64,000 nucleotides of DNA. It comes from Rhodospirillaceae bacterium. GTDB lineage: Bacteria > Pseudomonadota > Alphaproteobacteria > Rhodospirillales > Casp-alpha2. The translations under genes and the position numbers were made by a program. Location of the stretch: NCBI GenBank assembly GCA_018665815.1, contig JABJBP010000130.1:62001-126000 (forward strand), written 5' to 3'. Positions 44,394 through 50,951 of the stretch are shown here, piece by piece (the stretch's first letter is position 1; every line of letters begins with the position of its first letter). The notes below the pieces were generated by a model. The model ran no database searches and was not told the DNA's origin. It saw nothing but the letters and a program-made list of their open reading frames with translations.

Positions 44394-45719
44394 TTAGGGG
44401 GCCATGTTTTTTTCTTCCACCCGCGTGGCGGCCAGCGGTCGGCGCAGCGAATTTGGTGCGATTCCGGCCTTCAGTGCGGTCATTACGCCAACTGCTTCCC
44501 AGTAATTTTCCACCATATGCAATTGGCCCGGCGCCCAGGGCAGCGCTGACAGGTCATTTTGCATCAGGTTGTTATTCTCGCGCACGGCGATGATCGGGAT
44601 TCCCTGTTCCAGTGCCGCCAGCGTGGGCAGACCAAGGCATTTGTCTGGAATCACAAGGCACGACACATCGGCCACCGTCAACAAGCCGGCCATTCCCATC
44701 ACTTTGGGGTCCGTGATGATCCGCGGGCTACGATGCAGGCCTTTCAGCATGCATTGAATAAATGTCAGCGACACGGCCTCGGCGGCGAGCCTGGGCTCGA
44801 CCAGACCTAAGTCGAAATTCGCCACCTTGTGGTTCTCAAGCATGGGCGAATGGGCCGTCGGAACATCATAGAGCAACGACACCGCATGGGTCAGCATCGC
44901 TTCGACGCCCCCCCAGGGATTGATCATCTCGCCGTCGCCCTGGAAATACGCTTCGTGAATTTCATCATTAAGGTCGATGACCGAGGCGATGGCCACTGCA
45001 TCGAAGGCGCCGTGATTCTCATCGATTACCGCGCGGATGCGCTCTAGCCCATTGATCTCTCCGGCGGCCCTGCCCGAAGCCGTAAATTCCGCCGCCATGC
45101 GAAGCGGGGGGGCGAGCTTGACGACGCCGGCGCAGTCAAAGCCATAGGTGGCCCTGGCCGCGCTCACCGCATTGACGGTATCGTTTGCGAACATCTCAAT
45201 CTCGTGGGCATCAATGATCACCAGCACGCGATTTGCCCGCACCCGCTGCAATGCCGCTGTTCCCATCATCATCCGGGTGATCGAGCTGCCCTCCACATAG
45301 AGCGCGTTCTCCGGCATTTCGTTGAGATCGGAGGCATTAACGACATTCGGATGGGTGATTAACACATCGCAGGCCTCGGCGAGAACCCGTGCGGCGGGGG
45401 TCGCGTCCCCGGCGTGTCCACCGATCTCGGCGCCGATGCCGGTCGGCACTAGGAAAACGGCGTTGAAGGCATCGGTGCGCTCGAACTTCCGCGGCACCAA
45501 TCGAAAGATCGAACTCAGATCTTTGGCCACCCCGGAATCTAACCCATCAAGCGTGCCGAATTCACATTCATAACCCGCCTCATCCATGCACGTGATCGCG
45601 AAGCGCACCGGAACGGTGCCATCGTCGAGGTGCGATTTCACCGCCTTTTGAATTTGGGCGCACAAATTTTGATGACCCGGTGACGCCGGGATCGTCATGC
45701 GCTGTTCGATCATTTTCAT
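44394..45719 (-). CDS. DUF3326 domain protein
   Basis: A 441-residue soluble protein of the DUF3326 family. Conserved-looking blocks are VPTGIGAEIGGHAGDATPAAR, LITHPNVVNASDLNEMP and the later LGLVEPRLAAEAVSL; each is glycine- or Asp/His-rich like a ligand-binding site. IPDKCLGLPTLAALEQGIPIIAV near residue 375 resembles a Rossmann-like segment. The ATG at 45719 follows a GAGG that overlaps the stop of the AdoMet decarboxylase-like gene, so the two are coupled. The family has no established function; here it ends the DUF350-DUF1190-ATP-grasp operon. Confidence 0.8.
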   Translation of the reverse strand: MKMIEQRMTIPASPGHQNLCAQIQKAVKSHLDDGTVPVRFAITCMDEAGYECEFGTLDGLDSGVAKDLSSIFRLVPRKFERTDAFNAVFLVPTGIGAEIGGHAGDATPAARVLAEACDVLITHPNVVNASDLNEMPENALYVEGSSITRMMMGTAALQRVRANRVLVIIDAHEIEMFANDTVNAVSAARATYGFDCAGVVKLAPPLRMAAEFTASGRAAGEINGLERIRAVIDENHGAFDAVAIASVIDLNDEIHEAYFQGDGEMINPWGGVEAMLTHAVSLLYDVPTAHSPMLENHKVANFDLGLVEPRLAAEAVSLTFIQCMLKGLHRSPRIITDPKVMGMAGLLTVADVSCLVIPDKCLGLPTLAALEQGIPIIAVRENNNLMQNDLSALPWAPGQLHMVENYWEAVGVMTALKAGIAPNSLRRPLAATRVEEKNMAP

Positions 45720-45729
45720 GCGCGCAACC

Positions 45730-46146
45730 TCAAACCCGATCGATGAACCTGGCCGAACACTCGGCGGCGCCGAACCATTCGATCGAGAATTCCTCTGCCA
45801 CATTGGGGTCGAAAGCCTTGCACGAAAACATGTTGATATAGACCGCGCGCAATTGGTCCAGCGTATGGATGACGATGGAACTGGTCAGGATAAACTGAAC
45901 GGCCGACGTGCCTTGGGTATGCGGCAATGTTTGCTTGTCTTCTTCCGGTACGCCGATGTCGTCCCAAAAATGCAAATCTTCGCGTTGCATATCGATAAGC
46001 ACGCAAAGGCGTTCAAAATACGCCGAAATGCTTTCGCGGGTGAATTTCGACGCGTCGCAGCCGTGCATGTCGAGGATCAGCTCAATGCCGTACTTCCTCG
46101 TCACCCGTCCAGCCGTCTGGTCGGTGGTGCCGTCGCTGTCAATCAT
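45730..46146 (-). CDS. S-adenosylmethionine decarboxylase-like proenzyme
   Basis: A 138-residue protein aligned by eye with class 1B AdoMet decarboxylases (SpeH/SpeD). LILDMHGCD near residue 23 matches the family LLLDLYGCD. The processing region reads LTSSIVIHT, where the family has the Glu-Ser-His-x-Ser-Ile-His-Thr pattern. Ser89 falls on the pyruvoyl-forming Ser, His94 and Cys109 (MFSCK) on the other catalytic residues. The Glu before the cleavage site is Thr88 and the His after it is Ser90. Decarboxylated AdoMet is the aminopropyl donor of polyamine synthesis. No aminopropyltransferase gene is nearby. Confidence 0.82.
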   Translation of the reverse strand: MIDSDGTTDQTAGRVTRKYGIELILDMHGCDASKFTRESISAYFERLCVLIDMQREDLHFWDDIGVPEEDKQTLPHTQGTSAVQFILTSSIVIHTLDQLRAVYINMFSCKAFDPNVAEEFSIEWFGAAECSARFIDRV

Positions 46147-46202
46147 GTTCGCCCAATCCGATAATCTCTAGTCCGATATAATCTGGGGTCATATAGCATT
46201 GT

Positions 46203-47369
46203 TCAGTCCGCGATCACATGGGGAACGATGCGGGCATTTCTGCCGGTCACCAAGGTTTTGTCTTCGCGTATGCACAATCCAACCGCCTTGCTGGCCACCA
46301 ACCAACACCCAACCAGTGGATAATGGCCGCCAAATTCCGGCAACGGCTGGAAGCCTTGTATGATATGTGCATCGTCTCCGTAGAGGCCGTCGGTGTGGTG
46401 GAGCGTCTTGCCATCACGGACGATCTCAATATTGGCCCCCTGGCGCGACAACATGGGTTTGCGGACATAGGTGCCGGCGTCTGCAAATGAGGCGGCGGCG
46501 GGGTCATCTTCAAAAAATGCCGGCAACAGATTGGGATGTCCTTCGAACATCCCCCACAATAATGCCAGCATGCCTTTGTTAGACAAAATTGCCTTCCATG
46601 GCGGCTCAATGAACTGAACGCCCGATCTTGGCACATGGAGCCCAAAATCCTCATTCATGATCCATTCCCAGGGATACAATTTTATCAGGGTCGTGATGAC
46701 CCGGTGATCAAGATCTGTGAAGCGTCCTTGATCGTCGATGCCAATGTCGCTCATGGCCAGAAAGCAAGTCTTTAGCTCGGCTTCCCCGGCGCATTCCTCA
46801 AGATATTTCAGCGTCTCTGTATCATCTTCAATATCCGGGTTGCATGCGAAGTGCGATAAGGCCCCGACACCCAGTTGCGGCAAAGCCTTCACGATGCTTT
46901 CGTGGACGTCGTTGAATTGATCGCTGTCTTTCGGAGCCAGCCCCGCTTCGATGGCATGCTCCAACCACTCCCATTGAAATACCGCCGTTTCATATAGCGC
47001 CGTCGGCGTGTCGGCATTGTATTCCAACAATTTTGCCGGCCCGTTGCCGTCATATGAGAGATCCATTCTCCCATAGAGATTCTTCTCATTGTTGCGCCAG
47101 CTCTCGGCCATGTAATCCCAAAAGGGTTCTGCAATACCGAGGCGGCGCAAAACCTCTTCGTTGCCAAGGGCGCGATCGACGATTTGAAAACACAGGCCTT
47201 CGATTTCTTCCGCGGCGGCTTCGATATCTTCGTCGACCTGGCGCGCCATGAATTGGTAGTAGGCGCGTTCATCCCAACCGGTGATGCCTTCGCCGGCGGT
47301 ATACTCAAGGCCATGTTCAGCGGCCGCACGCGCAAGATCGGGGCGTTCGGTGACGGGAATGCGCTGCAT
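46203..47369 (-). CDS. YgiC/YjfC-like ATP-grasp ligase (glutathionylspermidine synthase family)
   Basis: A 388-residue protein of the glutathionylspermidine-synthetase C-terminal family. The start MQRIPVTERPDL mirrors the E. coli YgiC opening, so the ATG at 47369 is preferred. ATP-grasp elements appear as LYGRMDLSYDGNGPAKLLEYNADTPT (about residues 100-125, span), LFWSNKGML-like ILSNKGMLALLWGMFEGHPNLLPAFFEDD, and YVRKPMLSRQGANIEIV near 325. YPLVGCWLV closes the protein. The peptidase half of true Gsp synthetases is absent. Predicted reaction: ATP-dependent amide bond between a carboxylate and an amine, perhaps a polyamine; the substrates are unknown. Confidence 0.88.
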   Translation of the reverse strand: MQRIPVTERPDLARAAAEHGLEYTAGEGITGWDERAYYQFMARQVDEDIEAAAEEIEGLCFQIVDRALGNEEVLRRLGIAEPFWDYMAESWRNNEKNLYGRMDLSYDGNGPAKLLEYNADTPTALYETAVFQWEWLEHAIEAGLAPKDSDQFNDVHESIVKALPQLGVGALSHFACNPDIEDDTETLKYLEECAGEAELKTCFLAMSDIGIDDQGRFTDLDHRVITTLIKLYPWEWIMNEDFGLHVPRSGVQFIEPPWKAILSNKGMLALLWGMFEGHPNLLPAFFEDDPAAASFADAGTYVRKPMLSRQGANIEIVRDGKTLHHTDGLYGDDAHIIQGFQPLPEFGGHYPLVGCWLVASKAVGLCIREDKTLVTGRNARIVPHVIAD

Positions 47370-47403
47370 GGCGTCTAAGGGCGAAGTGAAGTGGGGTGTT
47401 TGG

Positions 47404-47946
47404 TCATGTGGCGCCCGACCCGAACCTACGCCCGGATGAACCAAATCCACCGCGCCTGATGGTCGAGCTTTTAAAAGACGGACGGCTTGTGGCGGAACTG
47501 GCGACGCGGGTCCGGCCCGTCGTCGAGCCGGCGCTCCGGTTGTCGGCAGTGCGGAAATTGTTTGGGCTGCTGGCTGGCCGGTAAAGTGGCTGCGAGATCA
47601 TCGAGCTGCGCCCGCCGAGCATGGACCCCATCATGTAGCCCATCATCAAAGGCATGAAAACCGATCCGCCGCTGGTTGTTTTGTAGGGTGCTTGCTCGCA
47701 CCTGCCATCGCCAAAATCGGCCTGGCAATCCTCCTGAGACGTATATTTCGGTGCCACCGCTGCATGCTGATTGCGCGCTTCATTAAAGTTGGCTTCACAT
47801 TGATCAGCGAGCATACCTGGCTCATCCTTGCACTGCTGCAAGCTTTCGAATACCGCCGCGTCGACTTTTGGTTCTTCACAGGCGGTCAACGCGATTAAGC
47901 TCACACTCATCACCAAGGCGGCAGGAACAGAATTCCAGCGTTTCAT
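47404..47946 (-). CDS. DUF1190 lipoprotein (YgiB/YjfM-like)
   Basis: A 180-residue envelope protein. The lipobox LTAC places the lipid-anchored Cys near residue 23. The DUF1190 core follows: ESLQQCKDEPGMLADQCEANFNEA, then YTSQEDCQADFGDGRCEQ, with four Cys likely in two disulfides. A Gly/Met-rich stretch (PLMMGYMMGSMLGG) and a Ser/Arg-rich tail ending RRGGFGSSGRRFGSG follow. GGAG precedes the ATG. In E. coli the homologue sits directly before ygiC or yjfC, as here (34 bases). Confidence 0.88.
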   Translation of the reverse strand: MKRWNSVPAALVMSVSLIALTACEEPKVDAAVFESLQQCKDEPGMLADQCEANFNEARNQHAAVAPKYTSQEDCQADFGDGRCEQAPYKTTSGGSVFMPLMMGYMMGSMLGGRSSMISQPLYRPASSPNNFRTADNRSAGSTTGRTRVASSATSRPSFKSSTIRRGGFGSSGRRFGSGAT

Positions 47947-48018
47947 CGTGTTATCTCCGATTGGGTTTGACGTGGGTTCTCTGCCCTATGTGTCACACAA
48001 TAGATGTACGTTTGTTGA

Positions 48019-48429
48019 TTAGTTCGTCATCGACGCAGCGTTCAAGACGCCGCCGGCGAGTGAGGCAGCGCCAAGCCATAGACCGCTGGCCAACTCGCCT
48101 TTTTCGATCCGCTCTGAAATTTTGGGTATCGGCATACAGACGAGATAAAAAATTGTAATTTGGACGATCACAGCGACGGCGCCCCATAGAGCACAATCCA
48201 CCAAAGAGCCCGAATTTTCGATCGCGCTGGCCAGCGGCACGCAAAAGCCGATCAGGCTGCCGGCAAAGGCGACGGAGGCGGCGGCGTTGTTTTCCCGGAT
48301 CAACTTGATCTCCGGGTGCGGTGTGACCCAGATGTAAATGACCACATAGCATAGAGTGAGACCCACAGCCGTTGCCATATAGGCAAGGAACCAGGGCAAC
48401 TCGTTGAGCGTAGCGCCAACTGTTTCCAA
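48019..48429 (-). CDS. DUF350 membrane protein (YjfL-like)
   Basis: A 136-residue protein with four hydrophobic spans, matching the DUF350 family in length and in patterns such as EIKLIRENNAAASVAFAGSLIGFCVPLASAI (span about residues 45-75). The first residue is taken as a TTG at 48429 with GGGAG about 10 bases upstream, because the longer frame adds 44 non-family residues. It is the first gene of the five-gene unit and lies 72 bases before the DUF1190 gene. E. coli yjfL-yjfM-yjfC has the same order. Confidence 0.83.
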   Translation of the reverse strand: METVGATLNELPWFLAYMATAVGLTLCYVVIYIWVTPHPEIKLIRENNAAASVAFAGSLIGFCVPLASAIENSGSLVDCALWGAVAVIVQITIFYLVCMPIPKISERIEKGELASGLWLGAASLAGGVLNAASMTN

Positions 48430-49867: not shown

Positions 49868-50728
49868 TTAGACCGGCCGCTCTCCGGCGATGGTGACGCG
49901 GTTCATGTGGCGCCGGTGGCCGGCGTAATCGTTGATCGCGAAATGCATGGTGCAGCGGTTGTCCCAGACGGCCAGGGTGTTCGTCGTCCAGGTGAAGCGG
50001 CATTGGAATTCCGGGCGGATGGCGTGGTCATAAAGAAAGTCTAACAGTGGTTGGCTTTCGTCTTCGGTCATGTCTTTGAAGCGCATCGTGTAGATTGGGT
50101 TGATGTAGAGACTCTTGTTGCCGGTCTCCGGGTGGGTTCGGACGACTGGGTGTAGGGTCTCTTTGTCGCCGCTATCGTCGGGGTTGATGGTCATCGAAGC
50201 ACTTTGGTTGTCATCGTCGGTGAAATATCCGCCGGATCCATAATTGCGCTCGGCGCTATGGACGGCGGTGAGTTTCGATAGCATATCTTTCATGCCGTCC
50301 GATAGGGCGTCGAAGGCGGCTTCCATATTGGTGAACAGGGTGTCACCACCGTAGGGGGGGGATTGCAATGAATAGAGGGCGGAGCCCAGGGGCGGCTTCT
50401 CATCGAAGCTGGCGTCGGTGTGCCAAACCCCGCCGAAGTTGTACATATCGCCGTCCTCGGGTTCTTTGACGATGTCGATGATGTCGGGGTAGTCATCGCG
50501 CGCCTTCACAAACGGCACCCGGTAGACTTCGCCGAACACGCCGGCGATGCGCAGGTGATCTTCGGGGGTCAAATCCTGGTCGCGGAAGAACACTACTTTG
50601 TGGTCCCATAGCGCCTGTTGAATTTCGGCTGTCTGGCTATTGGTCAGTTGGGATGACAGGTCGATGCCGGTAATTTCAGCACCCAAAGCGCCAGCGATGG
50701 ATTGAGCGGTTATGGTTTCGTATGGCAT
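49868..50728 (-). CDS. TauD-family Fe(II)/2-oxoglutarate dioxygenase
   Basis: A 286-residue non-heme iron oxygenase. The facial triad is His103-x-Asp105 (VWHTDASF) and His262 (CTMHFAIND), and the 2-oxoglutarate-binding Arg lies in HRRHMNRVTI (Arg273). VVFFRDQDLTPEDHLRIA is a typical TauD/TfdA helix. AGGAAAT precedes the ATG at 50728. Family members hydroxylate taurine, alkylsulfates, phenoxyacetates or other small acids. No sulfonate transporter lies beside it, so taurine is not assured as substrate. Confidence 0.9.
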   Translation of the reverse strand: MPYETITAQSIAGALGAEITGIDLSSQLTNSQTAEIQQALWDHKVVFFRDQDLTPEDHLRIAGVFGEVYRVPFVKARDDYPDIIDIVKEPEDGDMYNFGGVWHTDASFDEKPPLGSALYSLQSPPYGGDTLFTNMEAAFDALSDGMKDMLSKLTAVHSAERNYGSGGYFTDDDNQSASMTINPDDSGDKETLHPVVRTHPETGNKSLYINPIYTMRFKDMTEDESQPLLDFLYDHAIRPEFQCRFTWTTNTLAVWDNRCTMHFAINDYAGHRRHMNRVTIAGERPV

Positions 50729-50951
50729 GAGAATTTCCTGCGTTGGCGGTGATGATCGGCGAAAGCCTAAATGCGGCATTGGCGCTTGTCCACCGAGGCC
50801 AGCAATTCGGTTCGCCTCGTGAAACGCGGAATTTTTGGGTGTTCAGAGGTCCTTGAGGAACCGCAGCGTTTTGAGAAATGTGGTGTCAAATGACGAAGCT
50901 GAAGAGGGGGGGGAGCAGAGGGCATTGCCCGGATGCATGTCATTCAAGCCG

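Follow-up and report, generated by a model that had tools for sequence, protein, structure and literature searches.

The gene for an S-adenosylmethionine (AdoMet) decarboxylase-like proenzyme and the gene for a DUF3326 family protein, adjacent in a 64,000-nucleotide stretch of a Rhodospirillaceae genome (GCA_018665815.1, contig JABJBP010000130.1, positions 62,001 to 126,000; hereinafter, the window), form a near-obligate pair that recurs across bacterial phyla. In the window, the pair follows genes for a DUF350 membrane protein, a DUF1190 lipoprotein and a GSP_synth ATP-grasp ligase in a five-gene array (44394-48429), but tight association is limited to the decarboxylase and DUF3326 genes and does not extend to all five. 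Rather than supplying decarboxylated AdoMet (dcAdoMet), the pair probably constitutes a biochemical module not described before. The explanation that we favor, with a probability of roughly 40%, is that this two-enzyme core makes an amine-bearing metabolite which, in the window, would feed the YjfC-like amide ligase.

A scan of the genomes of 84,980 species yielded 405 relatives of DUF3326, and the loci of the best 80 of these 405 were analyzed. Represented among these loci are Pseudomonadota, Chloroflexota, Planctomycetota, Marinimicrobia, Verrucomicrobia, Nitrospinota, Bacteroidota, Nitrospirota, Omnitrophota, Elusimicrobia and other phyla. In 78 of the 79 loci with upstream sequence, a decarboxylase gene lies immediately upstream of the DUF3326 gene on the same strand, and the two genes often overlap or are only a few bases apart. 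This count includes the decarboxylases recovered by tblastn in 7 of the 8 loci where the open reading frame caller gave none, and in one further locus with a masked DUF3326, after which L082 is the sole informative locus without an upstream decarboxylase. The initial annotation, which treated the two genes as belonging together, was right in this respect. The pairing is valid for the DUF3326 subfamily that shares some 50% identity or more with the window protein, not for all DUF3326: in subfamilies with 37-48% identity (L029, L030, L174-L181), an upstream decarboxylase was not found. Among the latter, the planctomycetal loci L174-L178 encode a short DUF3326 (~350 aa, 38% identical), seemingly missing the N-terminal 85 residues, that forms a separate subfamily.

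The upstream gene encodes one of two decarboxylases, namely a SpeD-like pyruvoyl proenzyme, as in the window, in 44 of the 78 loci, or an NspC-like pyridoxal phosphate (PLP) fold-III decarboxylase, unrelated to the former, in the other 34 (~43%). The NspC-like members of the module score 235-337 bits with TIGR01047, under the 409-bit equivalog cut-off for true NspC; a separate canonical NspC (508 bits) is encoded only in G844. Parsimony analysis of the DUF3326 tree, which was quickly built such that the exact number is soft, gives at least 7 switches of decarboxylase type, including 2 that are imposed by branches with strong support. This repeated swap of unrelated decarboxylases suggests that both perform the same job for DUF3326.

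The genes that precede the pair are exchangeable, and parsimony on the same tree requires 10 or more changes of partner. The DUF350-DUF1190-ATP-grasp unit occupies this position in 26 Alphaproteobacteria-type loci, and its long form adds PspA, DUF2170, a K+ channel and DUF2491. In 13 loci from several phyla, PtuA and/or PtuB, the components of the Septu system, are located directly before the pair and match the respective PADLOC models with E values of 1e-54 to 1e-59. An uncharacterised membrane protein of ~400 aa precedes the pair in 6 loci. In 4 others (L084:45-2401, L104:346-2661, L080:6205-8867 and L093:135-1679), the pair is preceded by a cyclase-like TPR protein that is, in most cases, accompanied by a PRMT-like methyltransferase. 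The cyclase-like and PRMT-like genes are possibly another undescribed effector pair; L080 also holds the DUF350-DUF1190-ATP-grasp genes. An exchange at a single locus is seen in two Marinimicrobia: the flanking DNA is ~82% identical on both sides, whereas the NspC-like and DUF3326 genes are preceded by the membrane protein in L064 (7647-9033) and by PtuA-PtuB in L095 (6569-9033). One genome, that of Phycisphaerales bin11 (G814), encompasses cassettes with the PtuB partner and with the membrane-protein partner. Beside an intact cassette, this genome carries extra, apparently broken DUF3326 copies: L184 comprises the membrane protein, the SpeD-like gene and the first part of DUF3326 only, and L183 only the C-terminal part of DUF3326. 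In the Chloroflexota loci L067, L072, L076, L078, L089 and L106, the NspC-like and DUF3326 genes lie near either an AMP-binding (adenylate-forming) ligase-like gene or large genes that, by eye rather than by family search, were named SecA-like, transglutaminase-like and DUF4178-like. The adenylate-forming ligase may be a substitute for the ATP-grasp ligase.

A constant pair with changing partners lends itself to a broader interpretation, in which the pair is the core of undescribed modular stress or anti-phage systems, and an amine-derived molecule activates or feeds interchangeable effectors, including the Septu nuclease, the membrane protein, the cyclase-like and PRMT-like proteins, and the envelope amide ligase. 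This proposal is tentative, and the wider cassette as a new kind of system may be considered a possibility, not a result. A more specific variant, which appears unlikely, holds that the small molecule made by the pair is a signal that activates the neighboring effector, or protects against it, following a logic similar to that of CBASS or Pycsar. The number of partner changes, the clean swap in the two Marinimicrobia, the strong PADLOC matches of PtuA and PtuB, and the presence of Septu and membrane-protein partners in the same Phycisphaerales genome all speak for such signaling, but PtuA and PtuB both look ordinary, with no sensor domain seen in either. Furthermore, plasmid and phage collections contain no DUF3326 relative at an E value of 1e-5 and hence yielded no cassette, and the window operon includes no defense gene, given that PADLOC matched 0 of its 5 proteins and that neither PtuA nor PtuB adjoins it in the window.

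The gene order of the window operon, DUF350>DUF1190>ATP-grasp>SpeD-like>DUF3326, recurs in 14 loci of the 80 that were retrieved by protein similarity (L032, L033, L035, L036, L039, L040, L041, L043, L044, L045, L047, L049, L051 and L063) and also in L017, and this recurrence is not due to chance. The linkage on which the initial annotation relied is thus conserved in related genomes, and the five-gene order stands, but the claim of a tight five-gene unit does not, because the pair occurs with other partners and the ligase unit occurs without DUF3326. Indeed, GSP_synth ligases (455-510 bits) are also encoded in 7 related genomes that lack DUF3326 (G040, G046, G047, G052, G054, G055 and G059), indicating that the ligase unit can stand alone whereas the decarboxylase and DUF3326 go together. 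In this group, DUF3326 itself is rare: it was detected in 6 of the 61 relatives, in 10 of the 385 class genomes and in 2 of the 398 genomes in the phylum sample (the window genome is included in each count); among the relatives, the module-type SpeD-like gene is confined to the genomes that carry DUF3326.

The AlphaFold2 model of the window SpeD-like protein (pLDDT 89.7) matches the AdoMet decarboxylase of Thermotoga maritima (1vr7) in a Foldseek search (E 6.6e-9; TM 0.82 by target length), so the AdoMet_dc fold assignment is right despite a weak Pfam score. As far as the fold is concerned, the description of this protein as AdoMet decarboxylase-like holds; the protein fails the NCBI equivalog model for AdoMet decarboxylase, TIGR03330 (21.1 bits, cut-off 75.65). 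In the alignment, Ser81, Ser89, His94 and Cys109 of the window protein correspond to the self-processing and catalytic residues Ser55, Ser63, His68 and Cys83, the equivalents of which are conserved in the SpeD-like proteins of the module, whereas the canonical ESH...HTWPE signature is changed to TSS...HTLDQ, with the loss of WPE. The window protein is 35% identical to a SpeD2 that adjoins SpeD-SpeE (L140); a profile search of the PDB with the SpeD-like set gave nothing significant.

The genomic context of the SpeD-like genes speaks to their role. In the window genome, no homologue of Spermine_synth (PF01564), that is, of the spermidine synthase SpeE, was found (PF01564 was detected in 11 of 14 control genomes), nor was any other AdoMet_dc gene or a canonical SpeD. 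In the absence of these genes, local production of dcAdoMet for aminopropyl transfer is poorly supported. Among the 28 other genomes with a module SpeD-like gene, true SpeE is present in 8, all of which possess a separate canonical SpeD (≥104 bits), whereas only 2 of the other 20 genomes do (Fisher p = 1.4e-5 for SpeE versus canonical SpeD); SpeE thus goes with canonical SpeD and not with the module gene. An AdoMet_dc annotation is no guarantee of dcAdoMet production. As an aside, in five genomes without DUF3326 (G007, G010, G021, G027 and G032), a second weak AdoMet_dc gene, perhaps a SpeD of the ornithine decarboxylase type, is located near canonical SpeD on the opposite strand.

These patterns, together with the NspC-like replacement, argue against the self-contained route that was put forward in the initial annotation, in which the SpeD-like protein would make dcAdoMet, DUF3326 would be a new aminopropyltransferase, and the product would be ligated at the envelope. 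Among the matches listed for the DUF3326 model, there is none to the methyltransferase-fold aminopropyltransferases. This route is improbable even though the AdoMet decarboxylase fold and catalytic residues are retained and AdoMet decarboxylase genes are known in operons with ligase and DUF350 genes (Li 2019, as cited in PMC11237479). Also improbable is a housekeeping role, with the SpeD-like and NspC-like proteins as mere sources of putrescine or agmatine (SpeDC/SpeDA type) and fortuitous neighbors: such enzymes are widespread (PMC10407285) and SpeE is missing from many host genomes, but the strict partnership with DUF3326 and the repeated defense or envelope attachment would be unexpected, and at least 8 host genomes also hold canonical SpeD and SpeE.

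The DUF3326 protein is predicted to consist of two alpha/beta domains (AlphaFold model, pLDDT 92.3, pTM 0.92). Dozens of its residues are invariant over 57 sequences, including His102, Asp105, His123, Asn125, Glu143, Glu273, His278, His290 and Lys326, and such invariant polar residues are what would be expected of an enzyme. Structure searches with the model gave no confident match among solved structures, and a PDB sequence profile search yielded nothing significant. The best Foldseek row is to lumazine synthases (E 3e-3, residues 160-332), and the comparison with GT-B-like proteins gives a VIA Z of ~9.9 over ~135 residues. The segment GLPTLAALEQGIPIIAV resembles the GT4 donor site, a lead only, as both glutamates of the GT4 EX7E motif are seemingly missing.

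Under the amine-metabolite reading, the SpeD-like proenzyme would likely, judging from its conserved residues, cleave itself at Ser89 to form the pyruvoyl group, and the decarboxylase would then strip CO2 from an alpha-amino acid, probably other than AdoMet, to give a primary amine. The likeliest substrates would be a basic amino acid or a carboxy-polyamine-like compound. Carboxyspermidine-like substrates are conceivable as well, given the 3-amino-3-carboxypropyl group that carboxyspermidine has in common with AdoMet. PLP fold-III decarboxylases work on similar basic substrates, and we know of none that decarboxylates AdoMet. Given that SpeD homologues decarboxylating arginine or ornithine are known (PMC10407285; PMC9992855), a basic amino acid would be the simplest common substrate of both decarboxylase types. 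The strict pairing suggests that DUF3326 either converts the resulting amine or supplies the substrate of the decarboxylase. In the window, the next step would fall to the YjfC-like ligase, which would act at the envelope, where DUF350 and the DUF1190 lipoprotein would be its partners, and couple the amine to a peptide or protein carboxylate, by analogy with Escherichia coli YgiC and YjfC; elsewhere, more speculatively, the product of the pair might serve or control a defense effector.

Several points weigh against this reading. The activity of the pair is proposed from sequence and context, and the idea that both decarboxylases would catalyze the same reaction derives from gene position. The AdoMet decarboxylase of Sinorhizobium phage phiN3, which, similarly to the window protein, resembles the L140 SpeD2, has been validated as active (PMC9992855) and, according to the alignment, also lacks WPE, so the loss of this motif is no proof of lost AdoMet activity and favors the dcAdoMet route to that extent; the loss of Trp70 and Glu72 as proof of a changed substrate was dropped for the same reason, the active phage enzyme lacking both. 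Finally, the pair occurs beside Septu without an adjacent amide ligase, which implies that feeding a ligase is not its general role.

Parts of this organization have been described previously. The E. coli yjfL-yjfM-yjfC and ygiB-ygiC genes show the same DUF350, DUF1190, GSP_synth ATP-grasp order as the window but stand alone as three genes, to which neither a decarboxylase nor DUF3326 is attached. The function of these E. coli genes, which the initial annotation called unsettled, is less so, because YgiC and YjfC are both reported to act as peptide-spermidine ligases (Pederick 2023, cited by PMC12568646). PMC11237479 (citing Li 2019) describes operons with DUF350, DUF1190, a GSPS-like ligase, PspA, a K+ channel, DUF2491 and, in some cases, an AdoMet decarboxylase; the passages considered here mention neither DUF3326 nor the NspC-like replacement nor a Septu link of the pair. 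In the NspC-type loci related to the window (L021, L028 and L110), the NspC-like and DUF3326 genes are added to that polyamine/PspA/DUF350 operon. SpeDA and SpeDC share with the window SpeD-like protein the predicted AdoMet decarboxylase fold and occurrence in genomes without SpeE, but they cluster with polyamine pathway genes, whereas the window protein, with its putative activity, goes with DUF3326. Classical Septu consists of two genes, PtuA-PtuB, to which the related loci add the decarboxylase and DUF3326. The cyanobacterial fed3-DUF650-DUF3326 context (PMC4284462) involves the same Pfam family and is described there without a decarboxylase. Thus, operons of DUF350, DUF1190 and ligase with polyamine genes are known, whereas the DUF3326 pairing and its Septu link are seemingly new: DUF3326 is mentioned in two papers, neither of which puts it in such a context, in line with the initial annotation, and we found no description of the decarboxylase-DUF3326 pair or of its Septu attachment, in a literature search that had most subscription papers outside its reach, which leaves the novelty unproven. 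For a widespread family such as DUF3326, the near-invariant partnership with two unrelated decarboxylases offers a concrete hint at its chemistry, and the repeated association of the pair with Septu and envelope-stress genes would link polyamine-like metabolism with both immunity and the maintenance of the envelope in bacteria.

The five genes of the window operon (Table 1) are encoded on the same strand and separated by 72, 34, 56 and 10 bases, and the Pfam scores of all five proteins are well over cut-off, confirming the layout given in the initial annotation. The first three, adjacent with gaps of 72 and 34 bases, are a YjfL-YjfM-YjfC-type unit.

Table 1. Genes of the window operon in the order of transcription; each gene starts at its higher coordinate.
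Product	Position	Strand	Features
DUF350 (YjfL-like) membrane protein	48019..48429	-	TTG start; Pfam PF03994 125 bits
DUF1190 (YjfM/YgiB-like) lipoprotein	47404..47946	-	Pfam PF06693 139 bits; LTAC lipobox-like near N-terminus
GSP_synth ATP-grasp ligase (YjfC/YgiC-like)	46203..47369	-	Pfam PF03738 433 bits, nearly full model
SpeD-like pyruvoyl proenzyme, class 1b AdoMet decarboxylase fold	45730..46146	-	Pfam PF02675 49.7 bits (cut-off 25)
DUF3326 protein, 441 aa	44394..45719	-	Pfam PF11805 311 bits, model positions 2-337 of 337

Promoter and terminator scans of the operon detected sites no more numerous than in shuffled sequence and thus neither support nor refute a single transcript. The window genome is a 3.9-Mb draft, 98% complete, in 157 contigs. 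Upstream of the operon lies a gene for a TauD-family dioxygenase (window 49868-50779, minus strand) that has no evident relation to it.

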